43,517 bases of DNA from a virus, in IMG/VR virus record IMGVR_UViG_3300044632_001088, positions 1 to 43,517 of that record; one strand, written 5' to 3'. The position numbers were made by a program, and so were the translations under genes. The notes beneath the pieces are model-generated. The model was not told the DNA's origin and did no database searches. It saw only the letters and a list, made by a program, of their open reading frames with translations. Positions within the stretch are counted from its first letter, which is position 1; each line of letters begins with the position of its first letter. Shown one piece after another: positions 12,082 to 43,517 of this stretch.

Positions 12082-12845
12082 ACTGGGCAATCCTCAGGCG
12101 ATTGACAAGCAGATCCTCTACACCTGGGGTCAGGACATCGATCACCTTTCCCGCTCGATGTTTCTTCCAGTCCTTCAGCAGTCGTATCATCTTTCTTCTC
12201 CATCATCATCGCGTCCCAATCTTTGGGATAGTAATGGGTTGGCACCATGTCCTCATTGTGCATGACAACCATCTCCTCAACGTGTCCGATGCGGCAACCT
12301 GGGTCGATGTACAACTTGTTGCCAGCCTCCTTCCACTGCTGCCAAAACCAAATATCGGAGTCAATGTGGTCTTCACCCCATTCACCCTTGTCGTCGGGCT
12401 TGCAGTAGAACCATGGTTTGGGAGTAATCGCCAACTTCTTGACATTCAGCACGGTCAATCCAAAGTGTGCCGCATCGACCTCGATGGGAGTTCCATCCCA
12501 CACGGCAGACGTTTGCCCTTTCTTGAACCCAAGCAGGCTTTTGATCCCGCGTCGAACTTGCATTGATGCAACTGCATCCATATTTTCGTTCGCTGCAATG
12601 CAGATCAATCGATGCACCTGGTCACCTGTGAAAACGCTGTCACCGTCGACCGTCACGACGAAATCAAGATCATCCTTAATTGCGTCTTCAAACATGCGTT
12701 GCATCAGTTGTCCGTAGTACACACCGAATGACACAGCGAGCGGCACTCCCGCTTGCCTGAGCGAGCGATCAATCCACGTCCTGGCATAAGAAATCTCATG
12801 CCGACCCGTTGTCATCACCGCTCGAACACGAACCTGTTTAGCCAT
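12078..12845 (-). CDS. Glycosyltransferase-like protein (GT-A, DGD motif)
   Basis: A 255-aa protein beginning MAKQVRVRAVMTTGRHE, with Arg/Glu segments and TVDGDSVF (metal/nucleotide-sugar DxD) around residue 65, then a helix (HRLICIAANENMD) and a Cys-bearing C-terminus. It fits a compact family of phage/planctomycete GT-A glycosyltransferases. The start has AGGAGG 9 nt upstream; earlier in-frame ATG lies before that site. It sits inside the head module between the connector and a capsid-neighbour protein, an uncommon place for a sugar transferase. Glycosylation of capsid or tail proteins is possible but unproven. Confidence 0.65.
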   Translation of the reverse strand: MAKQVRVRAVMTTGRHEISYARTWIDRSLRQAGVPLAVSFGVYYGQLMQRMFEDAIKDDLDFVVTVDGDSVFTGDQVHRLICIAANENMDAVASMQVRRGIKSLLGFKKGQTSAVWDGTPIEVDAAHFGLTVLNVKKLAITPKPWFYCKPDDKGEWGEDHIDSDIWFWQQWKEAGNKLYIDPGCRIGHVEEMVVMHNEDMVPTHYYPKDWDAMMMEKKDDTTAEGLEETSSGKGDRCPDPRCRGSACQSPEDCPV

Positions 12846-14847: not shown

Positions 14848-14874
14848 TTTATAGTTGCCGTCAACTGTTGTCAA
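14848..14874 (-). promoter_or_regulatory. Promoter-like site for the capsid gene
   Basis: On the minus strand TTGACA (14869-14874), 15-nt spacer, TATAAA (14848-14853), about 135 nt before the capsid start and at the very end of the methyltransferase gene. The spacer holds GTTGACGGCAAC, one arm of the palindromic operator found at 28734-28758, so the same regulator might act here. Confidence 0.45.
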
Positions 14875-15604
14875 GTTTTACGCCGTGCGCAAAACCTCGC
14901 ACCTGACTGATCGTCAACGGGAACGGTGTCAATTTCCAGGTTTTCTCGCACTTCCAACCAGTGCTTTGCAACCATGCGTCGACGCAGTTCAAGGTCGGAA
15001 CGGTCCAATTGCTTGGATTTTTTCCAAATTGGTCCTCGGGATAAACTTCGGCAAACACCGCGTTTTCATGCGGAGCTTGGTTGCTATATGGGCTGAGGAC
15101 GCCGTCCAGAATCGCGGTTTCAATGTGGATGCTGCCACCTGGCCTGGTACTTTGCCATAGTTTTTCCAACGCCCACATGGGATGTTTTAAGTGATAGAGA
15201 ACACCAAAACAAAAGATCACATCGAACTGCACCCCTAGGTTACATATGTCGTAGACCGACATCGTCAACCGTTGACAGTTACTATATCCGAACGCTTTTT
15301 GGCACAAATCCCATGTCTTCCACTGAGACTCTCTGGTGAGCCCAGGCATGCCGAGCGTGTCGCTAAAATCGTCGATCGCGACGACATATGTCGCACCGCG
15401 TCGAATCGCTTCCCAGGTCCAATAGCCGTCCCAGGATCCAATGTCCAGCACCCGCTTGCCTGTCAGGTCGTCTGGGATGCGGTAGGCATCACGATCAATG
15501 GGAGCCCAACCAGGAGTCGTGACTCCCGGCAACTCGATTCGATGATACCAATACGGAATTTGCGAAACAGCCTGTTGGACTTCCTCGTTCGCACAAACAC
15601 TCAT
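14861..15604 (-). CDS. SAM-dependent methyltransferase, CmoB-like
   Basis: A 247-aa class I methyltransferase. The N-terminus has the CmoB/DUF1698-type signature PYWYHRIELPG...TPGW, then motif I VLDIGSWDGYW, acidic motif II (VVAIDDF), and DVIFCFGVLYHLKHP. CmoB family enzymes carboxymethylate wobble uridine in tRNA with carboxy-SAM; many divergent relatives methylate other small molecules or sugars. The target here is unknown. It lies between the prohead protease and capsid genes, ATG overlapping the upstream TGA (ATGA), an unusual cargo gene in a head module. Confidence 0.75.
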   Translation of the reverse strand: MSVCANEEVQQAVSQIPYWYHRIELPGVTTPGWAPIDRDAYRIPDDLTGKRVLDIGSWDGYWTWEAIRRGATYVVAIDDFSDTLGMPGLTRESQWKTWDLCQKAFGYSNCQRLTMSVYDICNLGVQFDVIFCFGVLYHLKHPMWALEKLWQSTRPGGSIHIETAILDGVLSPYSNQAPHENAVFAEVYPEDQFGKNPSNWTVPTLNCVDAWLQSTGWKCEKTWKLTPFPLTISQVRGFAHGVKLDNS

Positions 15605-21634: not shown

Positions 21635-22435
21635 TTAAGCTCTCCAAATCTCAAGATTGGAATATTTTTCCGTTAACGACGGCCCCAGTATTTTATTGCT
21701 ATTATGCGGCACTGGTTCTACAGCAGGTTTGATTTGGTGTAAATTTGGTATTCTGTGAACTCCTTCGTCGTCTTCCTGAGTGTATTGTTGTACGTTATCA
21801 AAGCAGTGATTGTAGTAGGGTAGTTCTAGATAATCATACACATTTTTTAGTGTTTGCTGTGGATGTGCGGTTAAGTCGTCAAACTCTACAAACAATAACT
21901 TGTTTTTGTAACCGCGCGATATTGCGTCCTTTACTCTATTATACGCTAAACCTACGGGCTGTTCCGCGCCAGCCCAAATGTCGCAACGTCCCTCGACGGT
22001 TTGCGATTTGAAATAATTCTCACGTTCAAAATTCCACTGGCTGGAACCCGTTGTAGTTCGCCACAGTTTTTCAAAACTGGCAAATATTTCATTCAAATTT
22101 CTAACTGGTACGATAATTTTAGGAGTTGCCCCAGTGATAAACTCCACCATTTCTATCAAACTCAGCCAACCGCGCCCTTTATCGATAATCACATTTTTCT
22201 CGGTAGTGTGATAGGAGTTCATAATTGCGGCGAGAACTCTTTTTAACTGATTGCGGTCAATCCCCTCTGCTTGGTGTTCGATCAAATTATCCCATTGATT
22301 GCGGACATTGAACAACACATCGTGAAACCCACTGGTGGCCCGACTAACGTACCAATCTGGATTTTGTGCTAGAATATTGCACAATAGCGTGCTTCCGCTT
22401 CTTGGCAATCCACTAATGAAATGAAATGTTTTCAT
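21635..22435 (-). CDS. Sulfotransferase (PAPS-dependent)
   Basis: A 266-aa protein with both PAPS-binding signatures: the 5'-phosphosulfate loop SGLPRSGSTLLCNIL (residues 8-22, Gly-x-x-Arg-Ser-Gly-Ser-Thr) and the 3'-phosphate motif VRNLNEIFAS (Arg112 to Ser120, eight residues apart as usual). It would move sulfate from PAPS to a sugar, peptide tyrosine or other acceptor. It lies directly behind the tail fibre gene (6-nt gap) but lacks a clear ribosome-binding site, so coupling is likely. The gene looks more A+T-rich than its neighbours. Target unknown; fibre or host surface polysaccharide are the obvious candidates. Confidence 0.85.
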   Translation of the reverse strand: MKTFHFISGLPRSGSTLLCNILAQNPDWYVSRATSGFHDVLFNVRNQWDNLIEHQAEGIDRNQLKRVLAAIMNSYHTTEKNVIIDKGRGWLSLIEMVEFITGATPKIIVPVRNLNEIFASFEKLWRTTTGSSQWNFERENYFKSQTVEGRCDIWAGAEQPVGLAYNRVKDAISRGYKNKLLFVEFDDLTAHPQQTLKNVYDYLELPYYNHCFDNVQQYTQEDDEGVHRIPNLHQIKPAVEPVPHNSNKILGPSLTEKYSNLEIWRA

Positions 22436-22441
22436 AATTGG

Positions 22442-24619
22442 TTAGGGTATTCCGTAGCTGACTTGTGATATATCTACGACTGCTACCCATCGTATATTTT
22501 TACTGACCAATCCAGTAACTCTGATTTCTAGTGCTTCGTTGGTGTCGTCGGCAACGATACTGGCGGATGTGCCGCTCATGGTTCCTTCGCTGTCGCGTTC
22601 CACAATCAAGCTGCCTATCATCGCTGTGCCGTTTGCTGCGTTTCTGCGCACGCCGCCGCGAATCGTCCACCATGCTCCGGTATTGTCGGTGTCGTTGTAG
22701 GCGGCAAGTTTTATACCAAGCGACCAAGTGGTTTCGGCGGGCAATGTTAAGCGATTGGTGGAACTGGGTGTACCACCATCGAGTGTCAGCACAACATTTG
22801 CCGTGGCGTCGGTGGTGTCGCGTCGAGCTATTAAAACGGTATGCTGCGCATCTCCAGCGGCGGAAAAAATTCCCGAAGCGTGGCTAGTTTCGCCGTGGCG
22901 AGTGGCTTTTGCACCAAATCCGCCGCCAACGGTGCTGACCGTGCCGCTGCTGGTGTTGCCATATCCGCCGCCAACGGTGCTGTAGTTGCCGCTGCTGGTG
23001 TTGCCAAATCCGCCACCAACGGTGCTGGTATTGCCGCTGCTGGTGTTGTTCGCTCCGCCACCAACGGTGCTGTAGTCGCCGCTGCTGGTGTTGTTCGCTC
23101 CGCCACCAACGGTGCTGGTATTGCCGCTGCTGGTGTTGAGCACTCCGCCACCAACGGTGCTGTAGTCGCCGCTGCTGGTGTTGACCACTCCGCCACCGAT
23201 TACACTATAACTTCCACTCGCCACCTGTGTGTTTGCATTTCTTAAAGTTTGCAAATCTACAGCATGAAACCCCCTAGCATTTCCTCCAGACACTGTGCCA
23301 TCTGGCATTTGGCCGACAATAGCTCCAGTGCCTTTTGGACCCAGCACTACTCCAATGTCCGCTGATCCCGTTCCTGCGGATTCGGCTCTGAGAATTGCAA
23401 ATCTGGAAAGGCTATACGTTGCAAAAGAAAGGGATAGTCGCTCGTAGTTGCTCGAATCCGTGAAGGTGTTGTAGATGCGGAAGGTCTGGGCAGCGGTGGA
23501 ATTTCTCTGGGCGAGGGTGTTGGCTGCATCCCTGACTAAAAACACATCATTATCACTTTCAATAGCAATTCCACGCCCAGTAGAAATCAAAGTAAGTGGC
23601 TGACTTCCAGCGCTAGTAGAATAAAATATTATACCACCACCAACACTTCCTGAGTTAGCTCGTATACTAAATGTGCTATTTGAATGAGATAATGAAGTGT
23701 ATCTGCCAACATCATTATTGTTCCAAATGCGAACTTCACCGTCTTTTTGTACTGTAAATTTTGAAAAATTATTTCTTTGCAAGTCCATCAGCAGACTTGA
23801 CGCATTACTCGCCGTGTCGGTGACATTCGCCTTGATGAGCGTTGGTGTGCCCGTGGTGTTCCAGGTTTGATTGATCTCTAACGCAGATACCGCTTCCGCA
23901 GAGGCAAGCGAGTGACCGAGTATTCGCACAGGTCGCTTAGACCCCGTGCCCGCTGCCTCCGGGGTAAGATCAAATCCGCTGGATGTTGCGGCTATGGAAC
24001 CACGGGTGTAGTTGCTTGCGTCGGTAAAAGATTCATAGATGCGGAAGGTCTGGGCGTTGGTGGCATTTCTCTGGGCGAGGGTTCCAGCGGCATCGCGGGT
24101 AATGAAAAGATCTCTGTTCAAAAAACAATCGCCCGACCCTGCTGTACTGCTAGACCAACTAACTCCAAAATTTGATGCCAGTGCTAACCCAACAGCGGAC
24201 TCCGGACCAAATATGGCAGACCGACCAGATGTATTTCTTGTTCTTGCCGCAGAAGCAATGTTATATCCCTCAATAAGAGATCCACCATGATAAAAGCAAT
24301 TACCTAGATACCCCTTCCCATCTTTCATTACGTTAAATTGACTCACCCCTCCCACCTGCAAGTCCATCAGAAGCGAACTGGACGACGAAGCGGTGTCGGT
24401 GACGTTGAGCCGCATCCCCGTAAACACCGTGCCCGCACTGTTCCACGTTTGCGTTGCATCGATTAGCGGAGCCAATGCCGTGACCGTACCGCCGGTGAGA
24501 CTTGCACCAAGAAACGTCGGCGTATTGCCAGTACCTAGCCCGATCAACGTGCGAAACGTCGATGCTGCCGAGAGTGCATCGGTTTTGATTTGGCTGAGGT
24601 CAAGACTGGTTGCGGACAT
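22442..24619 (-). CDS. Tail fibre with YadA-like GGG-NTSSG repeats
   Basis: A 725-aa fibre. It has two related halves near the N-terminus (each with LDLQVGG/LMDLQ and AQRNATNAQTFRIYESFTDASNY or AQRNSTAAQTFRIYNTFTDSSNY), then about six 15-residue repeats of the form NTSSGxxSTVGGGxx (DNA 22920-23190), then a C-terminal receptor-binding or chaperone-like part. The repeat matches head-domain repeats of trimeric adhesins, which form left-handed beta rolls. It most likely binds the host surface. TAATG overlap with the coiled-coil gene. Confidence 0.85.
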   Translation of the reverse strand: MSATSLDLSQIKTDALSAASTFRTLIGLGTGNTPTFLGASLTGGTVTALAPLIDATQTWNSAGTVFTGMRLNVTDTASSSSSLLMDLQVGGVSQFNVMKDGKGYLGNCFYHGGSLIEGYNIASAARTRNTSGRSAIFGPESAVGLALASNFGVSWSSSTAGSGDCFLNRDLFITRDAAGTLAQRNATNAQTFRIYESFTDASNYTRGSIAATSSGFDLTPEAAGTGSKRPVRILGHSLASAEAVSALEINQTWNTTGTPTLIKANVTDTASNASSLLMDLQRNNFSKFTVQKDGEVRIWNNNDVGRYTSLSHSNSTFSIRANSGSVGGGIIFYSTSAGSQPLTLISTGRGIAIESDNDVFLVRDAANTLAQRNSTAAQTFRIYNTFTDSSNYERLSLSFATYSLSRFAILRAESAGTGSADIGVVLGPKGTGAIVGQMPDGTVSGGNARGFHAVDLQTLRNANTQVASGSYSVIGGGVVNTSSGDYSTVGGGVLNTSSGNTSTVGGGANNTSSGDYSTVGGGANNTSSGNTSTVGGGFGNTSSGNYSTVGGGYGNTSSGTVSTVGGGFGAKATRHGETSHASGIFSAAGDAQHTVLIARRDTTDATANVVLTLDGGTPSSTNRLTLPAETTWSLGIKLAAYNDTDNTGAWWTIRGGVRRNAANGTAMIGSLIVERDSEGTMSGTSASIVADDTNEALEIRVTGLVSKNIRWVAVVDISQVSYGIP
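22920..23190 (-). repeat. Six 45-bp tandem repeats inside the fibre gene
   Basis: In-frame 45-bp units encoding NTSSGxxSTVGGGxx, nearly identical at DNA level, varying mainly at the two codons after SG and the two after GGG. The number of units could change by slippage or recombination and so alter fibre length or binding. Confidence 0.85.
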
Positions 24620-26924: not shown

Positions 26925-28070
26925 TTAGTGCGTCGGATTTTGCGCCGCTTTTTGCCATGCGTCGGAGGTCACCAAAAGATAGTGTTCCTTCGCGATCGAT
27001 GCAGTGTTGCCAAGCCACGCACACGCAGCAGCAAGGCCGAACTCTCGCTCCAACTCCGTCTGCCGACTGGCTCGCATGGAGTGAAACAACCTCGGCCATG
27101 GCTTGATGTTGGCGCGATCAAGCCGCGTTAACAACTCTTTCCGCAAGTTGGCGTTTGCCCAGCCGGTCGGCCGATCTGCTAACGCTCGCATCTCGTCTTT
27201 CTCAATCACATATCCAGCTGACTTTTTTTGCGGCTCAAGGATGATGCGTAGGTCGGCAAACAAAGGACAGTCGCGAAAGTCTTTCCCTGCGAGATGCTCG
27301 GTCTTGGGACTTGGTATGATCATCTTGTTAGCCAACCAATCGATCTGCTCCCATCGGATCGACAACACCTCCGAGGGACATCGCAAACCACCGTACCGAG
27401 CAAGGCCCACGATCGCTTGCCACTGTGGGTCAAGATGTTTCATTAGGTTCCGAATCGTTTCAAGCGGTACCTCGACGTTGCTCGCCACTTTTGGTCTGGC
27501 AAGCCTGATTGATTGCCATGGGTTGGTGGGCAACACCTTCGACGCAACGGCATGCGAAAAGAACTGCTTGGCAAATTGAAGTCGCTTGTACTGAGTGGTT
27601 GGCTGAAGTCCATCTGCTCGCATCGCATCAAGCCAATCCTGTGCGTGACCAGCATGTACCTCATGCAACGGAGTCTTTGCGGGAATCGTTCTGAGGATCC
27701 CGTTTCTCGCAATCTCCCACACCAGCACGGTGGCCGGCTTAACCGCTTGCTTGCGTTTGTTGATGTAGTCGTCTAGGTACTCTTGGAGTGTAATTCGTTT
27801 GACACGTTTGGTCACAGGCGCCCCTGTGATGAGTCCGCAACGTGCCATGCGGTCTCGCACTGTTTTGCCGAGATTCGCTACCCATCGCAATGTGTCGGCA
27901 TCGGCCGTGACTCCCAAAATCTGGGCCGATACCAACTGTTCAATGCGACTCCGAACGACGTGAGCGTCTTTTACCGAGCATTTTCCGAGTCGAAGCGTTC
28001 GCCTCTTGCCATCGAGCCCAAAAAACTGAATCCTAATTCGTCCGTTTGGATCTCGTGAAACGCTAGCCAT
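26925..28070 (-). CDS. int: Tyrosine integrase (phage site-specific recombinase)
   Basis: A 381-aa tyrosine recombinase. Residues 1-65 form a beta-rich arm-binding part (DPNGRIRIQFFGLDGKRRTLRLG); about 90-200 the SAM-like core-binding domain; about 200-381 the catalytic domain with Arg in ARYGGLRCPSE (near 228), LFHSMRASRQTEL (box II His/Arg, near 330) and WLGNTASIAKEHY (nucleophile Tyr near 361). The GGLRCPSE and HSMRASRQTE forms are, to my knowledge, typical of planctomycete recombinases and are the main host clue. It lies beside the attP-like site. It lacks features I would expect of an integron integrase. Confidence 0.92.
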   Translation of the reverse strand: MASVSRDPNGRIRIQFFGLDGKRRTLRLGKCSVKDAHVVRSRIEQLVSAQILGVTADADTLRWVANLGKTVRDRMARCGLITGAPVTKRVKRITLQEYLDDYINKRKQAVKPATVLVWEIARNGILRTIPAKTPLHEVHAGHAQDWLDAMRADGLQPTTQYKRLQFAKQFFSHAVASKVLPTNPWQSIRLARPKVASNVEVPLETIRNLMKHLDPQWQAIVGLARYGGLRCPSEVLSIRWEQIDWLANKMIIPSPKTEHLAGKDFRDCPLFADLRIILEPQKKSAGYVIEKDEMRALADRPTGWANANLRKELLTRLDRANIKPWPRLFHSMRASRQTELEREFGLAAACAWLGNTASIAKEHYLLVTSDAWQKAAQNPTH

Positions 28071-28590: not shown

Positions 28591-28733
28591 GCATGCATCA
28601 TCGCATGTACAACGCAAAAAAACAGTGGAAATCCTACGATTCCGCAGTATAAGCAAAATTGTTGGTGATTTTGTGACAATTTTTGTTGACAGAGTAGTTG
28701 CAATGAACTCTGGACATCGATAATCTTCTCCGT

Positions 28734-30920: not shown

Positions 30921-31009
30921 ATGATCTGCTTGAGATGCCGTGGCTGACGGAACTGTTGGTAGGAGGAACGATCCTTTTAGGAATCATCTTAGGAGTCTTG
31001 TCATGTTAA
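30914..31009 (+). CDS. 31-aa small membrane protein
   Basis: MVDDLLEMPWLTELLVGG then a hydrophobic run (TILLGIILGVLSC): one membrane helix. It overlaps the DUF669 end by 7 nt and the acetyltransferase start by 7 nt, a coupled position that argues for real translation. Function unknown. Confidence 0.45.
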   Translation: MVDDLLEMPWLTELLVGGTILLGIILGVLSC

Positions 31010-31464
31010 GGACTGATGCCATGAGTATTCGTTGGCTACTGTCATCTGATGTACCTGTTGTCGCGCGGATAGAGCAGCAGTGCTTTGCTCTACCGCTAAC
31101 GGAGACAGAGATCATGGAATGGTTGGCAATGCAGGATTGTATCGGCCTAGTGTACGAGGCGCGCGGTCGCATTGCTGCCTACATGATCTACGTCTTCGAC
31201 GACCTTCAGTACTACATACTCAACATGGCAGTGGCTCCCGAGTTTCGATTTCAAGGGGTCGCGACAGAGTTGGTGCGGCATCTCAAGTTAGGTCTCGTAA
31301 GCGATCGTCGGCGCATTAGAACGAAGGTGCGGGAAGACAATGTGCCGGCGATTCGCTTTTTCGAGAAACATGGGTTCATCACTCGCCCAGACAAGCTAGG
31401 TGTGGAGTACGTCCACACTGGCAAGAAGCGATTGAAAGTCTTGCATATGAAGTACGAGGCATAG
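31003..31464 (+). CDS. GNAT N-acetyltransferase (RimI-like)
   Basis: A 153-aa GNAT protein: VPVVARIEQQCFALPLTETEI, IAAYMIYVF, YILNMAVAPEFRFQGVATELV (acetyl-CoA loop, motif A with QGVA), then EDNVPAIRFFEKHGF. This matches RimI-type N-terminal acetyltransferases. AGGAG 8 nt before ATG 31003 decides the start; ATG 31021 is an alternative. Its substrate is unknown; phage GNAT enzymes can modify host proteins or toxins. Confidence 0.85.
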   Translation: MLRTDAMSIRWLLSSDVPVVARIEQQCFALPLTETEIMEWLAMQDCIGLVYEARGRIAAYMIYVFDDLQYYILNMAVAPEFRFQGVATELVRHLKLGLVSDRRRIRTKVREDNVPAIRFFEKHGFITRPDKLGVEYVHTGKKRLKVLHMKYEA

Positions 31465-35938: not shown

Positions 35939-35985
35939 GACGAACAATCATTATATGGAATTCCACATATCACGGCGTTATGTGG
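35939..35985 (+). repeat. attC-like remnant E
   Basis: GACGAAC (35939-35945), reverse complement of the right arm of D, then a GTTATGTGG (35977-35985) that could be a right arm. The space between is taken by the first 27-bp iteron instead of a paired stem. Confidence 0.4.
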
Positions 35986-36031
35986 AATTCAACATATCAC
36001 GGTGATATATGCAAAACAACATATCCTGGCA
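35951..36031 (+). repeat. Three 27-bp tandem iterons
   Basis: Units 35951-35977, 35978-36004 and 36005-36031 at an exact 27-nt period. The first two match at 24 of 27 positions (TTATrTGGAATTCmACATATCACGG); the third is diverged but keeps ACATATC. The inner part is a near palindrome around GGAATTCC. The third overlaps the start codon of the next gene, so they could be a repressor operator for the helicase-primase genes or replication iterons. Confidence 0.65.
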
Positions 36032-37888: not shown

Positions 37889-39985
37889 ATGGACGAGATG
37901 ACTAGAGATGCTTTGCGCTGCGCCGAAGTTGGTTGGAAGCTGGTGCCAGTCAATGGCAAGATGCCGATCCTCACAGGTTGGCCCGATCGGCCGATACAAA
38001 CAAAACATCAGATCCTTGAACAGTCTGGTCACGATGGATGGGGAGTCATCCTCGGCAAAGGATCAGGCGTCATCGACGTTGAATGCGATAGCGAAGAAGC
38101 GTTTGATGCGTTCCTGTCGCTTGTTGGAGGTGAAGCTCCCAAGACTGTTTCATGGCACTCGTCGCGTGGAATGCACTTCATCTTCAAGTGGACGGAAGGT
38201 TGGCCCGAAACATCGGTCCTGAAGTTTCGAGGCATCGAGTTTCGCATTGGCAATAAGGCGGCGCAGTCGGTGTTGCCACCTAGCAACGGACGAGGGTGGG
38301 TCATCGCGCCATGGCAAGGTGAAGTGCAGGAGTTTCGATGGCGAGATGAAGTGCTTGGCATCCCATCGGAAACCGTATTGATTAGCAATCACGCTGGTGA
38401 ACCTCTTGACGTGGAAGCATGGCTCAATCGTCGACGAGTGCCAATCCTCGGCGCGAAGGTTGCCGATGGCACCAAGAAGTGGTTCATTGCGTGCCCTCGC
38501 AGTGAAGCTCACACGACAGCTAATCACATGACCGATTGCATGGTGACCCAGGCACCTGACGGGAGCCTCGGTGGCAAGTGTTTTCATCAAAGTTGCGGCA
38601 TGAGCAACTGGCAAGAATTAAAGAATGCGATCGGAGCGCCAGAGTGGATCGACTACTACGACGAATCGAGGAGCCGGCATTGGGGTGAAATAGCTGATCG
38701 ACTCTGGCCGAGTGTGCTTGTGAAGTACGCGGATGAAGACGAAGACGACGACAACGATTTCTGCTTAGCGATGTTGCCGCAACATGGACTCATTCGAGCG
38801 ATCTATGACTATTACACCTCGATTGCATTTCGACCTTCTCCCGTGATGGGGCTAGCCGTGTCGCTGTCGCTGTGCCAAACGATTTTCGGACGCAGGATAG
38901 CGAGCCAAACCGACATGAGGACCAACGACTATAACGTCGTCATGGCATGCACTGGCTCAGGCAAGGAGGCATGCGAAACAGCAATTACCAAAATACTTCA
39001 GCAAGCGGATCCGAACTTCGACATTATGATGCCGGCCGATGTGCAGTCTGGTAACGGTTTGATGAATGCCATGGCTCAGCAACCGTGCAGGATTTGGGTG
39101 TGCGACGAGTTCGGCAAGATCCTCAGCGCGGTGTTGGACAAACGGGGCAATCAGCACCTGAAAAACATCGGTACGCACCTCCTCAAGATTTACGGCAAGT
39201 CGAGCGGCAAGTACACAGGTGCCGCACACTCGGACAAGATCAGGAACGCCGTTGACCAACCGCACTTGTCGGTATTGGGCCTGACAACTGGGGCAACCAT
39301 TTCGTCGGCGATCACGCATGACCAGCTGACGGACGGACTGCTGGGCCGAATCGCGTTTTGGAACCTACAGGCCAGGCCAGACGCTAATTACGAACTGGAA
39401 GTCAAAGATCCAAACGCTAGCTTGGTCGACGCGGTGAAGTCGTGGATAGCGTTCGCCCCCCATGGTGAAGAAAACAACTTGGCTAGCCTGTTCCCAAGAC
39501 CGATCGTAATCCCAATGCGGGACGCGGTCCTAGCTCGATGGCGAGAACATGGCGCGACGATCGATCAGCGGATGGCATCGGAAAGCGAGATCAGAGCAGC
39601 GATCTGGGGTCGCGTTAACGCTCGCGCGATGAAGCTTGCCCTCGTACACCGTGCTGCGAGGCTCTCACGGCCCTCGGAATGCGTTGGAGCAGTGATTGAG
39701 GCTCAGGATGTCAACTGGGGCATCAAGCTTGCCAATCGGCTTGCTAGGGTCTCCTGCGACATCATCGATCAGCAAGTGGTCGACATCGGTCTATCGAAAG
39801 CTAAAGCGGTTTTATCTCAGGCGATCGCAACCGGCGAACCGATCAGCAAGCACTCTATTTTGCGGAAGCACCGGACTCTCTCGTCCGGCGATCTGGAAGC
39901 CGCGGCAGAGCAACTTGGCATCGAGGCAAAAGACGTGCCAACTCGAGGCCGGCCGAAGCGGATGTACCACCCCCCCGTTCGGTAG
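37889..39985 (+). CDS. Primase-polymerase / DUF3987 replication protein
   Basis: A 698-aa multidomain protein. Residues about 1-150: Prim-Pol (AEP-like) domain (MTRDALRCAEVGWKLVPVNGKMPILTGW, GVILGKGSGVIDVECD, WHSSRGMHFIFKW). About 200-235: zinc-binding (FIACPRSEAHT... CFHQSCGMSNW). About 300-560: DUF3987-like helicase/ATPase with a P-loop ACTGSGKEACE (about 351-361), IWVCDEFGKILSAVLD and GLLGRIAFWNLQ. Such fused primase-helicase proteins start phage replication. AAGGA before ATG 37889. Last large early gene. Confidence 0.85.
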   Translation: MDEMTRDALRCAEVGWKLVPVNGKMPILTGWPDRPIQTKHQILEQSGHDGWGVILGKGSGVIDVECDSEEAFDAFLSLVGGEAPKTVSWHSSRGMHFIFKWTEGWPETSVLKFRGIEFRIGNKAAQSVLPPSNGRGWVIAPWQGEVQEFRWRDEVLGIPSETVLISNHAGEPLDVEAWLNRRRVPILGAKVADGTKKWFIACPRSEAHTTANHMTDCMVTQAPDGSLGGKCFHQSCGMSNWQELKNAIGAPEWIDYYDESRSRHWGEIADRLWPSVLVKYADEDEDDDNDFCLAMLPQHGLIRAIYDYYTSIAFRPSPVMGLAVSLSLCQTIFGRRIASQTDMRTNDYNVVMACTGSGKEACETAITKILQQADPNFDIMMPADVQSGNGLMNAMAQQPCRIWVCDEFGKILSAVLDKRGNQHLKNIGTHLLKIYGKSSGKYTGAAHSDKIRNAVDQPHLSVLGLTTGATISSAITHDQLTDGLLGRIAFWNLQARPDANYELEVKDPNASLVDAVKSWIAFAPHGEENNLASLFPRPIVIPMRDAVLARWREHGATIDQRMASESEIRAAIWGRVNARAMKLALVHRAARLSRPSECVGAVIEAQDVNWGIKLANRLARVSCDIIDQQVVDIGLSKAKAVLSQAIATGEPISKHSILRKHRTLSSGDLEAAAEQLGIEAKDVPTRGRPKRMYHPPVR

Positions 39986-40415
39986 TTCTGACCTTTTGAC
40001 CTTTTGACCGTAGTAAAGGGGGCCAAAGAGGGAGCCTCCTGAAAACTCCCCCCTAGAGAGGGGTCTGACTAGGGAAAGGGAGAACCTTATGGTAATAAGG
40101 ATATAAGGGGGTATATATATATATTTCCTTTGTTTTCATTGAGATTCTTCTTGTTCTTTTAGCCGGGCAAAAGTTTACCACTATGGCAGGAAGGGCGGCT
40201 TGTATTAGCTCGGCTAATGACTTCTAGCCTAATTGCCGTTTTGACCAAAAATGGGAAAAAGTTGACGGAAATTGTTTCTTGAGGTCGATTGACTTGTCGA
40301 CAATAACCGTCTAGCTTAGGGTGAAGTCGCACCTAGGGTGAAGTTAGGCCTAGGGTGAAGTCAGGGTGAAGGTGAAGTTGCACTTAGGGTGAAGTTGACA
40401 CGAAAGGGTGAAGTT
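39986..40415. other. Candidate replication origin: AT-rich zone plus iterons
   Basis: A 430-bp gap without a convincing gene. It has CTTTTGACC direct repeats just after the primase stop, small hairpins (CCCC-TAGAGA-GGGG, and CCTTAT-GGTA-ATAAGG near 40086), a (TA)n-rich AT tract about 40110-40135, a TTGTCGACAA palindrome near 40292, and from 40318 about seven AGGGTGAAGT units. AT-rich DNA plus iterons next to primase and helicase genes is a common origin layout; unproven. Confidence 0.5.
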
Positions 40416-40426
40416 ATGGGTGAAGT
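40318..40426 (+). repeat. GGGTGAAGT repeat cluster 1
   Basis: Seven or eight irregularly spaced copies of (A)GGGTGAAGT, several separated by GCACCTA or similar. The last copies are just before and over the ATG of the 40416 gene and resemble a Shine-Dalgarno, AGGGTGAAGTTATG. Confidence 0.8.
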
Positions 40427-40745
40427 TGAAAAGGACTGGGGCGAAAAGCCCGACAATGACGGGCCGATCAATTTGGTGAAATTGTGGGATTCGTATGAGG
40501 CAAAGGTTTGGGCACTGCACCCCAAAGACTTCCAGCCGAGGGGTGAACCTTCAACTGTCATTAAACCGTTTTGCCAGAGCGCCGGTCTGTGGTTGGTTGC
40601 TAGGCGCGAATTGGGTGAAGGTGCCGATTGGATTGTCGAGATGGACGGTTTTTTAACCGACTCCGATGTAAATCAGCTGGCGCAAAAGTATTTGTTTCTT
40701 GAAATAGAGGACGATTTGAAAACAAAGGTGATGAAGGGAATTTAG
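40416..40745 (+). CDS. Small early protein, 109 aa
   Basis: A 109-aa protein (MGEVEKDWGEKPDNDGPINLVKLWDSYEAKVWALHPKDFQPRGEPSTVIKPFCQSAGLWLVAR, cited in part as WGEKPDNDGP and SYEAKVWALHPKDF). Its start is within a GGGTGAAGTT repeat, which gives the ribosome-binding site. No family recognised. Followed by the CopG-like gene after 10 nt. Confidence 0.55.
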   Translation: MGEVEKDWGEKPDNDGPINLVKLWDSYEAKVWALHPKDFQPRGEPSTVIKPFCQSAGLWLVARRELGEGADWIVEMDGFLTDSDVNQLAQKYLFLEIEDDLKTKVMKGI

Positions 40746-40755
40746 GGGTGAAGCT

Positions 40756-40983
40756 ATGGCGAAGAAGAAAGTTCCAGCCGATCGATTCCGCAATCAGTTT
40801 AAAGTCACCGTGAGGCTCAACGAACTTCAGGAAACGGTAGAACGGCATGCCGAGAAAGCCGGCCTGACCGTTTCCCAGTGGGTTCGGCAAGTGATTGCGG
40901 ATCGGCTAGGCGAAGATTGCCCCGATGTTCGTAGGGGCAACATTTCCTATTGGGAGAAAATAAAAAACAAAAAAAATGACTGA
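40756..40983 (+). CDS. Ribbon-helix-helix (CopG/Arc-like) protein
   Basis: A 75-aa protein: FKVTVRLNELQETVERHAEKAGLTVSQWVRQVIADRLG matches a ribbon-helix-helix (strand KVTVRL, helix, GLTVSQWVRQVI, helix). GGGGTGAAGCT directly before ATG 40756 is again a repeat-like RBS. Likely a transcription or copy/partition regulator; it may bind the nearby repeats. Confidence 0.75.
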   Translation: MAKKKVPADRFRNQFKVTVRLNELQETVERHAEKAGLTVSQWVRQVIADRLGEDCPDVRRGNISYWEKIKNKKND

Positions 40984-41081
40984 AGATCACTTGTCTTCAT
41001 TGTCGACAACACATAGACTGGTTGCATGCCGACCGCGTTGTGTGGTTGGTCAAGTGGACCGCAGGAAGAAGGAAAAGTAAG

Positions 41082-41297
41082 ATGAGCACAACACGAATCA
41101 ACACAGTCGACAGCCACGGCAAATGGGCAGTAGTTACCGAAAGCCAAGGCACGACAGCCGAGTATTGCATCACATGCTTCGACAGCAAGAAAGAAGCGAT
41201 CGAATGGATGAACGAAGAAGGCGATGCAGGAAACGATGCGGAAGTCATGCTGACAAGCAAGGCTCTCAAAATGTACCCAGATTGCGTTATCCAATAA
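41082..41297 (+). CDS. Small acidic protein, 71 aa
   Basis: A 71-aa protein from ATG 41082 (MSTTRINTVDSHGKWAVVTE..., SKKEAIEWMNEEGDAGN). A small alpha/beta pattern with a WxxE helix. AAGGA upstream. Upstream ACAACAC...GTTGTGT inverted arms (41008-41041) flank its leader. Function unknown. Confidence 0.5.
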   Translation: MSTTRINTVDSHGKWAVVTESQGTTAEYCITCFDSKKEAIEWMNEEGDAGNDAEVMLTSKALKMYPDCVIQ

Positions 41298-41318
41298 TGA
41301 TCCCAGAAAAGATAACTT

Positions 41319-41341
41319 TCCGGCTTTTTCAAACAAAGGGA
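41319..41341 (+). repeat. 23-bp direct repeat, copy 1
   Basis: TCCGGCTTTTTCAAACAAAG followed by GGA, identical to 41564-41586. Each copy lies just before a small gene. Confidence 0.8.
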
Positions 41342-41350
41342 AATACAGAG

Positions 41351-41536
41351 ATGACAATACAAGAACAAATCGCCAAACAGAAGGAAGCATTCCGGCTGTT
41401 GTCGAGGTCGCGACAGAATCATCTGCGGCGAGATGCCGAGGGTTTTTGCAACTCGAATCCAGATTGCGCGAATCATAACGGCTTTTGGCGCGGTCTGTCA
41501 GCGAGGCACGTTTTGGAAGCGTATTACGGCAAATAA
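41351..41536 (+). CDS. Small protein, 61 aa
   Basis: A 61-aa protein: MTIQEQIAKQKEAFRLLSRSRQNHLRRDAEGFCNSNPDCANHNGFW. A helical basic start and CNSNPDCANH as a possible metal site. It lies between the two 23-bp direct repeats. Function unknown. Confidence 0.45.
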   Translation: MTIQEQIAKQKEAFRLLSRSRQNHLRRDAEGFCNSNPDCANHNGFWRGLSARHVLEAYYGK

Positions 41537-41552
41537 TTCACAACGCCCAGTC

Positions 41553-41574
41553 GCCGGGTGGGCTCCGGCTTTTT
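41553..41574 (+). terminator. Probable rho-independent terminator
   Basis: GCCGG (41553-41557) pairs CCGGC (41565-41569), 7-nt loop, then five T (41570-41574). GCCCA (41545-41549) could instead pair TGGGC (41559-41563). It lies between two small genes and inside the direct-repeat copy 2. Confidence 0.5.
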
Positions 41575-41586
41575 CAAACAAAGGGA
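41564..41586 (+). repeat. 23-bp direct repeat, copy 2
   Basis: Identical to 41319-41341; spacing 245 bp. Confidence 0.8.
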
Positions 41587-41595
41587 GGACAGGCA

Positions 41596-41793
41596 ATGGC
41601 AGTCGAACAAATCAAAATTGACGGTGAAGTGTACTTTTTCGGCATGGCGAAGAACGGATCTTGGATCACTCCAGGTTACGCGACGAAGGCCGAAGCGATC
41701 GAAGCAGTCGATTTGCTGGCTTCGGGCGGAGATGCCCCCAAGGGCGCCGATATTGAGTTCCTGCTCAATATGTGCGGGTGCGACGACGACTAG
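41596..41793 (+). CDS. Small protein, 65 aa
   Basis: A 65-aa protein (MAVEQIKIDGEVYFFGMAKNGSW, ATKAEAIEAVDLLASGGDAPKGAD, ending NMCGCDDD). GGGAGG upstream of ATG 41596. Its stop overlaps the first GGGTGAAGT unit of cluster 2. Function unknown. Confidence 0.5.
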   Translation: MAVEQIKIDGEVYFFGMAKNGSWITPGYATKAEAIEAVDLLASGGDAPKGADIEFLLNMCGCDDD

Positions 41794-41974
41794 GGTGAAG
41801 TCGACTATAGGGTGAAGTTATAACCTCGCAGCAATGCGAGGTTTTTTTATTGGGTGAAGTCGTGGGGTGAAGTTGCAAGGTGAAGTCGTGAGGTGAAGTC
41901 GCAGGGTGAAGTCGCAGGGTGAAGCTGGGGTGAAGTTCTAGGGTGAAGTTCTAGGGTGAAGCTGGGGTGAAGTT
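41792..41974 (+). repeat. GGGTGAAGT repeat cluster 2
   Basis: About twelve copies of GGGTGAAGT (or AGGTGAAG, GGGTGAAGC) spaced 10-18 nt, interrupted by a terminator (41823-41848) and ending at GCACCTAGGG. No gene is visible in 41794-42357 beyond these repeats and the next array. Confidence 0.85.
41823..41848 (+). terminator. Rho-independent terminator
   Basis: ACCTCGCA (41823-41830) pairs TGCGAGGT (41835-41842), GCAA loop, followed by seven T. It closes the small-gene operon. Confidence 0.85.
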
Positions 41975-42000
41975 GCACCTAGGGCGCGGTTGGACAGTCA

Positions 42001-42247
42001 ATCGATAGAGACGATCGATAGAGACGATCGATAGAGACGATCAGTAGAGACGATCGGTAGAGACGATCAGTAGAGACGATCAGTAGAGACGATCAGTAGA
42101 GACGATCAGTAGAGACGATCGGTAGAGACGATCAGTAGAGACGATCGGTAGAGACGATCAGTAGAGACGATCGGTAGAGACGATCGGTAGAGACGATCGG
42201 TAGAGACGATCGGTAGAGACGATCGGTAGAGACGATCGGTAGAGACG
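42001..42247 (+). repeat. 13-bp tandem repeat array (19 copies)
   Basis: Nineteen copies of ATCrrTAGAGACG (ATCGGTAGAGACG, ATCAGTAGAGACG or ATCGATAGAGACG), exactly 247 bp. Core GAGACGATC. The GATC-GTCTC core recurs in reverse orientation in the 23-bp array (43215-43468). Confidence 0.95.
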
Positions 42248-42264
42248 ATCGAAAAAACATTGAA

Positions 42265-42325
42265 CTACACTTGCCTACATTGTCGACATTGTCTACATTG
42301 TTTGCATGCGGGAAACGTTTTCCGC
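42265..42325 (+). promoter_or_regulatory. Leader repeats upstream of the GP88-like gene
   Basis: CTACATTGTCGACATTGTCTACATTGTT, i.e. ATTGTC at a 9-nt period, then the near palindrome CGGGAAACGTTTTCCG (about 42308-42323). Regulator sites or part of a promoter. Confidence 0.45.
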
Positions 42326-42357
42326 GTTGGTTCAACGTTTTTTTGGGAGTAGATACC

Positions 42358-43161
42358 ATGCAAGTACTTGGCGAATTCTCTAAATCGGTCGACGGATCGA
42401 AGAGTCTAAATTTTGACGTATCGGCCGGATCGAATTGTGACGACCGTTGCCGATATCATCCGCGGTCGACCGCGGACAATGCTGTAGGTGGTTGTTATGC
42501 TGTAGTGGTAGAATCTAGAGCGGATAGACGACAATTGACGGAAAAACTATTGCGACATGGAAAAACGGATCCGGTTACGGTGGTTAATGCTGCCATCGTC
42601 GAAATTGGACAATTGACGGAAAAACGCAAGATACTTCCTTGGTTCCGTTTTTCGACAAACGGTTCTGTTCCGAAATTGTCGGAATTGTCGGAACGCAAAA
42701 AAACGGCCGTTCTATCCGCGTTTAGAGCGTTGGTAAAAACGTTGTCGGTTAATGGTTGTGTTCGTTCGCGAATCCATCTTCCGGTTGAAACGGCCGAAAA
42801 AGCGATGGAATATTCTGAATTGTCGGACGTTGTGACAATTAGGGAATCAGTACAATCGGTCGACCATAGTTACAATCCCAGCTGGGGTTGCTCATTTGTG
42901 GTTGGCGAAGAAATTCAAGAGGGAAAAAACATAACTGGACGCCGCGTCGATGCTGCGAAACAATTCGCCAAAAAACGTTTAGAATCGACCGGCCGAAAAA
43001 CTATCGTTTGTCCGGCCGTTACCAGTGGTTGGCAAAAACGTTTTTCCGGTCGACCGGATAAGATTTTATGCGGACAATGTACAGCATGCGCGAACCCAAA
43101 TCTGGACGTTGTTTATCCGTACCATGGGCCAAAATTGGTACTGATCGGTGGCAAGCAATGA
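42358..43161 (+). CDS. Cys-rich GP88-like phage protein
   Basis: A 267-aa protein from ATG 42358 (GGGAG 8 nt upstream). N-terminal CxxxCRYHP...GCYAVVVESRADRR (Cys27, Cys31, Cys46), a middle ILPWFRFSTNGSVPKLSEL, DVVTIRESVQS, and a C-terminal ILCGQCTACANPNL (Cys238, Cys241, Cys244). This resembles phage GP88-like (PF17338) proteins, of unknown function; metal or Fe-S binding is likely. Wording of codons (many AAA, CGG, TTG with few GC-ending) looks different from the neighbours, a sign of separate origin. It is flanked by the two repeat arrays. Confidence 0.5.
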   Translation: MQVLGEFSKSVDGSKSLNFDVSAGSNCDDRCRYHPRSTADNAVGGCYAVVVESRADRRQLTEKLLRHGKTDPVTVVNAAIVEIGQLTEKRKILPWFRFSTNGSVPKLSELSERKKTAVLSAFRALVKTLSVNGCVRSRIHLPVETAEKAMEYSELSDVVTIRESVQSVDHSYNPSWGCSFVVGEEIQEGKNITGRRVDAAKQFAKKRLESTGRKTIVCPAVTSGWQKRFSGRPDKILCGQCTACANPNLDVVYPYHGPKLVLIGGKQ

Positions 43162-43181
43162 TCGATAAAATAAATTAGGAT

Positions 43182-43211
43182 AACGGTCGACTATGTCGAC
43201 CGTTTTTTTTT
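43182..43211 (+). terminator. Rho-independent terminator
   Basis: AACGGTCGAC (43182-43191) pairs GTCGACCGTT (43195-43204), 3-nt loop, then a T-run to 43211. It terminates the GP88-like gene. Confidence 0.9.
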
Positions 43212-43214
43212 GGT

Positions 43215-43468
43215 ATCGTCTCCCAGCTGACCTACCGATCGTCTCCCAGCTGACCTACCGATCGTCTTCCAGCTGACCTACCGATCGTCTCCCAGCTGAC
43301 CTACCGATCGTCTTCCAGCTGACCTACTGATCGTCTCCCAGCTGACCTACCGATCGTCTTCCAGCTGACCTACCGATCGTCTACCATACTGACCTACTGA
43401 TCGTCTCCCAGCTGACCTACCGATCGTCTACCATACTGACCTACCGATCGTCTCCCAACTGACCTAAT
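43215..43468 (+). repeat. 23-bp tandem repeat array (11 copies)
   Basis: Eleven copies of (CG)ATCGTCTCCCAGCTGACCTAC with variants (CTTCC, and two 24-bp copies with CTACCATACTG). Nearly the whole 43162-43517 gap is this array plus the terminator and an end hairpin. Core GATCGTCTC is the reverse complement of GAGACGATC in the 13-bp array. Confidence 0.95.
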
Positions 43469-43477
43469 GCGATGGTT

Positions 43478-43508
43478 GGGGGGGTGCCCAAAAACATGCC
43501 ACCCCCCC
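43478..43508. other. GC-rich hairpin at the right end
   Basis: Seven G, T, G (43478-43486) pair with C, A, seven C (43500-43508); 13-nt loop. It lies 9 nt from the window end; function unknown. Confidence 0.5.
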
Positions 43509-43517
43509 GTCAGCGAT

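Follow-up and report, generated by a model that had tools for sequence, protein, structure and literature searches.

In the iteron replicons of P1 (oriR-repA-incA) and F (oriS-repE-incC), two arrays of one site flank a single gene. Binding sites of two related lengths occur at ori2 of V. cholerae, where the RctB 29-mer equals the 39-mer minus 10 nt and one initiator binds both (PMC6090056). Contiguous direct repeats serve as sites for ribbon-helix-helix (RHH) proteins, as at parS of pSM19035 (PMC9499535), and StbA of R388 binds two sets of five 9-bp repeats, its ATPase partner being dispensable for stability (PMC3098194). Direct repeats, inverted repeats and putative terminase-binding sites are also found in the cos regions of 936-type lactococcal phages (PMC6105707).

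Here we describe a locus in a virus contig of 43,517 bp (hereafter the window, meaning the whole stretch of DNA that was analysed) in which two tandem arrays, inverted relative to each other, flank one gene for a conserved cysteine-rich protein of 267 amino acids. The arrangement is real, conserved and rare; it is neither ordinary nor an artefact, and close mechanistic precedents exist. A first-pass annotation held that no described system has such a layout, which is too strong a statement given the comparable P1 and F replicons and the two-length sites of RctB.

Like the locus described here, the P1 and F units combine one gene between two arrays of the same direct-repeat site, short repeat units, and an operator-like palindrome before the gene. 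Unlike them, the phage unit lacks a RepA/RepE-type protein (the 267-aa gene matches no replication-initiator (Rep) family), a DnaA box (TTATNCACA is absent from the window) and a clear AT-rich element (the spacer is only 59% AT), and the phage carries a PrimPol-helicase of its own in addition to an integrase. With ori2, it shares short direct-repeat sites that each contain GATC and two site classes differing by 10 nt (PMC6090056), but the short iterons of ori2 are unrelated to its 29/39-mers and RctB (658 aa) has no counterpart in the phage. The pSM19035 parS, ParR/parC and StbA/stbDR systems are similar in their contiguous or near-contiguous direct repeats, in the small DNA-binding protein (a putative one in the phage) encoded nearby, and in having two repeat sets around a promoter or gene; in contrast, no partition ATPase was found among the major ORFs of the phage, its units measure 13 or 23 instead of 7-11 bp, and its arrays are inverted and lie 1 kb apart. 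Finally, the 936-type cos regions (PMC6105707) also place repeats and an inverted repeat near the cohesive end (a probable one in the phage), whereas the phage has far more repeats, a second, inverted array 1 kb inside, and distant terminase genes.

Genome type and ends

The minus strand of the window encodes an HK97-type capsid protein, portal, Clp-type protease, TerL/TerS and tape measure, and the plus strand a Sak4-like protein, a helicase and a PrimPol-DUF3987 protein. Together with a tyrosine integrase gene (26925-28070), these structural and replication genes indicate that the virus is most likely a temperate tailed phage, and its genome is probably complete or almost complete. Transcription runs outwards in both directions from about 29 kb and meets at the contig ends, and the cumulative GC skew has its minimum at 28,643 and its maximum at 43,213, immediately ahead of the right array.

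One relative with the same gene and two-array layout was found (IMG/VR contig 3300034166_001066, 41,910 bp). It continues without a break across the junction of the window ends, where base 43,517 and base 1 are separated by exactly 10 bp (CACGCCGCTC), and a third contig (L034), which comes from another sample and is identical to the window, likewise stops at window base 1. The simplest reading of these sequences is that the contig ends represent a cos with 10-nt 3' overhangs that were lost in library making, so that the right genome end (43508-43517) is a probable cos. The TerL type (PF03354/PF20441) fits this reading. With cos at the window end, a distance of about 50 bp would separate the right array from the genome end. 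Beyond the junction lies a conserved non-coding leader (1-153) that carries TTTGCRA three times, near positions 21, 50 and 72, as a candidate cosB.

Two inverted arrays with one exact core

The left array (42004-42250, plus strand) comprises 19 units RRTAGAGACGATC of 13 bp. It is in perfect phase (TRF span 42001-42251, 96% matches, score 432) and contains 18 full AGACGATCRRTAG cores. The right array (43215-43466, minus strand) has 11 units of 23-24 bp (91% matches, score 416) with 10 full AGACGATCRRTAG cores, and is inverted relative to the left one. When the window was shuffled 60 times with dinucleotides preserved, TRF scores did not exceed 55, far from the 432 and 416 observed, and the two inverted arrays flanking one gene thus exist as placed in the first-pass annotation.

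Read on the minus strand, the right unit consists of RRTAG, an insert of 10-11 bp (mostly GTCAGCTGGG) and AGACGATC. The word common to both arrays is accordingly the 13-mer AGACGATC-RR-TAG, which makes up the entire left unit and to which the right unit adds the 10-bp insert. The inversion originally noted for the reverse-complement cores holds, but the core given for them (GAGACGATC/GATCGTCTC) was inexact; of the 11 right units, only 5 contain it unchanged. Variation is confined to the RR pair (GG in 9, AG in 7 and GA in 3 of the 19 left units) and the 10-bp insert, while TAG and AGACGATC are invariant except in the outermost units. Scanning for AGACGATCRRTAG with up to one mismatch gave 28 hits for the window and 31 for the relative. 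Every one of these 59 copies is exact and lies within the arrays, with no one-mismatch copy in either sequence and none outside the arrays. The reversed AGACGATCRRTAG pattern, used as a control in the same scan, gave 0 matches.

The two pitches, 13 and 23 bp, differ by 10 bp, which is close to one helical turn. The rotation from one core to the next would therefore be similar in both arrays (about 70-90 degrees), as would fit side-by-side protein binding. The 23-bp unit brings TGA or TAG stops into every frame within 69 bp, so the right array is non-coding, and, judged by the terminators on both sides, the arrays lie outside the transcription unit of the gene. Both properties point to a role at the DNA level. 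No Rfam match was found in 39900-43517. The arrays also lack the unique spacers between repeats that characterise CRISPR, since their units are contiguous and the insert is itself repeated.

Apart from the relative, the array repeats were not found in other viral contigs, and blastn searches with the right array against phages and with the left array against plasmids returned nothing. Another 18 stretches contain CGGTAGGTCAGCTGG, one copy each, and these single matches were taken as chance. Each left unit contains GAGAC and GATC; a decoy of restriction or Dam sites was considered and rejected, as both words also occur often in the rest of the genome.

The gene between the arrays and its surroundings

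From left to right, the region is ordered as terminator, GGGTGAAGT array, 13-mer array, palindrome, gene, terminator, 23-mer array, G7/C7 repeat and genome end. The first intrinsic terminator (41822-41843, plus strand; a 9-pair stem followed by a T-run) closes the rightward operon before the 13- and 23-bp arrays. An operator-like 18-bp palindrome, GCGGGAAACGTTTTCCGC, lies between the left array and the gene (42308-42325) and is perfect in the relative (GCGGGAAACGTTTCCCGC). The gene itself (42358-43161, plus strand) is followed by its own intrinsic terminator (43182-43204, plus strand), whose stem covaries: GGTCGAC/GTCGACC in the window is replaced by the paired changes GGCCGCA/TGCGGCC in the relative. 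No promoter position could be assigned confidently. A G7/C7 inverted repeat, GGGGGGGTG...CACCCCCCC (43478-43508), lies between the right array and the end of the genome and is kept in the relative with a changed loop.

The GGGTGAAGT array is a distinct direct-repeat array of about 11 copies (41793-41977, plus strand; TRF and motif positions). Its motif differs from that of the left array, 26 bp before which it ends, and it is present in the relative (L031) at 12138-12275. A second GGGTGAAGT cluster is found at 40319-40426, and both clusters follow closely on the PrimPol-DUF3987 gene. They are reminiscent of the GGTGAACAG iterons of phage P4 and may constitute the replication origin. Single GGGTGAAG copies also precede start codons in the manner of a Shine-Dalgarno sequence (40746).

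The 267-aa product is cysteine-rich, as first annotated: it has 9 Cys, arranged in the motifs C-x3-C...CYA and CPA...C-x2-C-x2-C...HG. The different codon use ascribed to the gene is weakly true, with a GC3 of 0.41 and a deviation (z -1.8) that is smaller than in several other phage genes (down to -5.8). Compared with the relative, the protein is 96% and the DNA 91% identical (about 9% different), and with a dN of 0.022 and a dS of 0.41 (dN/dS about 0.05) the gene is under strong purifying selection. The layout is kept in the relative despite changed copy numbers, the right array having 15 units (11 in the window) and the left one at least 18, split over two contig ends.

Scanning viral contigs and GTDB genomes with the 267-aa protein identified only this one close relative, and tblastn in phages and plasmids returned nothing; several shorter contigs that belong to this virus group stop short of the array region. 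The gene and the repeats do co-occur, both arrays being present in each of the two genomes that carry the gene and the repeats in no other viral contig. Since these are only two related genomes of one lineage, their co-occurrence is not independent evidence.

Family of the 267-aa protein

The protein was initially described as GP88-like, but no match to PF17338 (GP88) was obtained at E <= 10 in the window. The hits to PF23872 (DUF7227), with E-values of 0.16 and 0.06, stay below the 27-bit cut-off, and nothing significant was matched in Pfam, PHROG, NCBIfam or PDB. An AlphaFold2 model had a mean pLDDT of 37 and was rejected as a basis for fold searches. Both GP88 (PF17338) and DUF7227 (PF23872) proteins resemble the 267-aa protein in the C-terminal CPA...CxxCxxC...HG and in a CYA-type N-terminal Cys motif, and several DUF7227-like genes are also located near the right genome end. 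For comparison, we used a family of 148 phage records with a similar Cys layout, 11 members of which were aligned for a profile. Using hhalign, the 267-aa protein matched this alignment with an E of 0.0075 over 36 C-terminal columns, which correspond to the CPA...CxxCxxC...HG stretch, and 1 of 150 column shuffles scored as well. The only link to DUF7227-like phage proteins is this weak C-terminal Cys motif, and distant homology is no more than possible. Among the family members compared, these possible distant homologues, the only ones found, have no flanking inverted arrays; should the homology hold, the arrays would not be a trait of the family.

In Caulobacter phage S2B (L069), a 35-bp direct repeat occurs before and after the DUF7227-like gene (1133-1167 and 1990-2019). 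As a counterpart of the inverted arrays these repeats were rejected; they look like gene-by-gene regulatory modules instead.

A proposed role as docking sites for a common protein

We propose that the arrays are cis-acting polar docking sites for one phage-encoded protein that recognises AGACGATCRRTAG, with sites in two spacings (13 and 13 + 10 bp) and opposite orientation flanking an independently transcribed gene beside cos. The binder would coat each array cooperatively and pair the two arrays, looping out the gene. The module would then act like an iteron unit, in which an ori array and a control array lie on either side of a gene, or like an array of RHH operators, and would control the gene, the way the terminal region is replicated and maintained, or both. 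Unequal exchange would hardly homogenise inverted arrays of different unit length, which makes a common ligand the simplest reason for the core identity, and the preservation of the layout in the relative also supports the proposal. We put the probability that some sequence-specific protein binds both arrays at about 0.8. For cooperative coating and pairing of the arrays, with control of the gene or of the terminal region, the odds appear evenly balanced, and any single biological purpose could be named only tentatively.

Two candidate binders are encoded within or close to the unit. One is the 267-aa product of the flanked gene. The earlier suggestion that such a protein binds the repeats on either side of its own gene is retained in the broader form that this or another array-binding protein is, as we infer, the best class of explanation. 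The other is a putative RHH DNA-binding protein of 75 aa encoded about 1 kb upstream (40756-40983, plus strand), with matches to NikA-like proteins (E 4.7e-4), DUF6290 (2.3e-4) and RHH_1 (0.021), all under curated cut-offs. Its residues 9-29 are identical and residues 1-51 nearly identical in the relative, with the C-terminal tail replaced, and its AlphaFold2 model is all-helical, lacks the RHH strand and is uncertain (mean pLDDT 68). If one protein binds both arrays, the locus would be a natural experiment in spacing, presenting a polar site at 13- and 23-bp pitch around a gene at a phage terminus. It would also provide a new, compact model of how arrays pair, and could allow a function to be assigned to a Cys-rich phage protein that has no detectable family.

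A bidirectional origin is expected at the minimum of the cumulative GC skew. At 43213 the skew has its maximum instead, which speaks against an origin here, although gene direction confounds this signal. The missing Rep family, DnaA box and clear AT-rich element likewise count against the iteron reading. A more far-reaching version of the docking-site proposal, in which the Cys-rich protein would be a new type of array-binding protein of a self-contained terminal module, recognising the 13-bp polar site in both spacings, pairing the inverted arrays beside cos and thereby controlling replication, termination or circularisation, strikes us as improbable on present sequence evidence.

Alternative explanations

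The arrays could serve transcription control only, with the 75-aa RHH-like protein or the gene product binding the left array, looping to the right one and silencing or timing the 267-aa gene, with no role in replication. This alternative overlaps with the docking-site explanation and narrows it. The left array is directly upstream of the gene, with the operator-like palindrome in between, and the RHH-like gene, whose predicted DNA-contact segment is identical in the relative, lies 1 kb upstream; yet thirty sites would be a large number for a single promoter, the right array is located beyond the terminator, and the RHH matches do not reach curated cut-offs, leaving this a possible but doubtful account. 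That the right array is a packaging element, i.e. a large cosB or terminase-recognition region, is unlikely. Its position near an end resembling a 10-nt cos and the repeats of the 936-type cos regions would be in line with such a function, but the left array is equally conserved, about 1 kb away and inverted, the terminase genes are about 18 kb off, and the TTTGCRA repeats in the non-coding leader across cos are a better cosB candidate.

Copy number differs between the relatives and the phage has other tandem arrays, as would be seen after neutral satellite expansion or in a functionless remnant of a mobile cassette. We judge this to be very unlikely in view of a core that is exact in 59 copies across differing unit lengths and orientations, and of the purifying selection on the gene. 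A mobile unit, which had been offered as one explanation, also finds no support in the only gene of the unit, which has no transposase or recombinase match, and no relative that lacks the unit spans the site. The chance that the facing arrays form a polar barrier at the terminus, stopping forks or polymerases like Tus-ter clusters, seems slighter still: the cores point inwards from both sides, transcription converges, and the skew extremes (maximum at 43213, minimum at 28643) would suit a terminus, but the skew tracks the orientation of the genes, the units already have terminators between them, and no Tus-like protein was found. The least probable alternative is a centromere for the partition of a plasmid-like prophage, which tandem direct repeats and an RHH-like protein would recall through their resemblance to parC/parS arrays. 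The partition system contemplated in the first-pass annotation finds no support in the major ORFs that were scanned, among which there is no ParA, ParM or TubZ (the NTPases are the Sak4-like protein, the helicase, PrimPol-DUF3987 and TerL), and the phage encodes a tyrosine integrase.

Other features of the phage genome

Outside this region, the genome also holds genes for a sulfotransferase (21635-22435) and a GNAT acetyltransferase (30940-31464), as well as a Methyltransf_9-like methyltransferase gene (14861-15604) inside the head gene cluster. An exonuclease-like gene (420-1445) shows 71-97% identity in about ten otherwise different viral contigs and is a travelling module; the phages sharing it have neither the 267-aa gene nor the arrays, and little else in common with the window. 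Tandem repeats of 45/90 bp (22914-23197) lie inside a 725-aa ORF without a family (22442-24619) and possibly mark a variable fibre-like region. Just before the helicase operon, a 27-bp repeat with ATGTGGAATTCAACAT-like dyads (35951-36025) is present in 2.8 copies, compared with 2.1 in the relative, and has an operator-like appearance.
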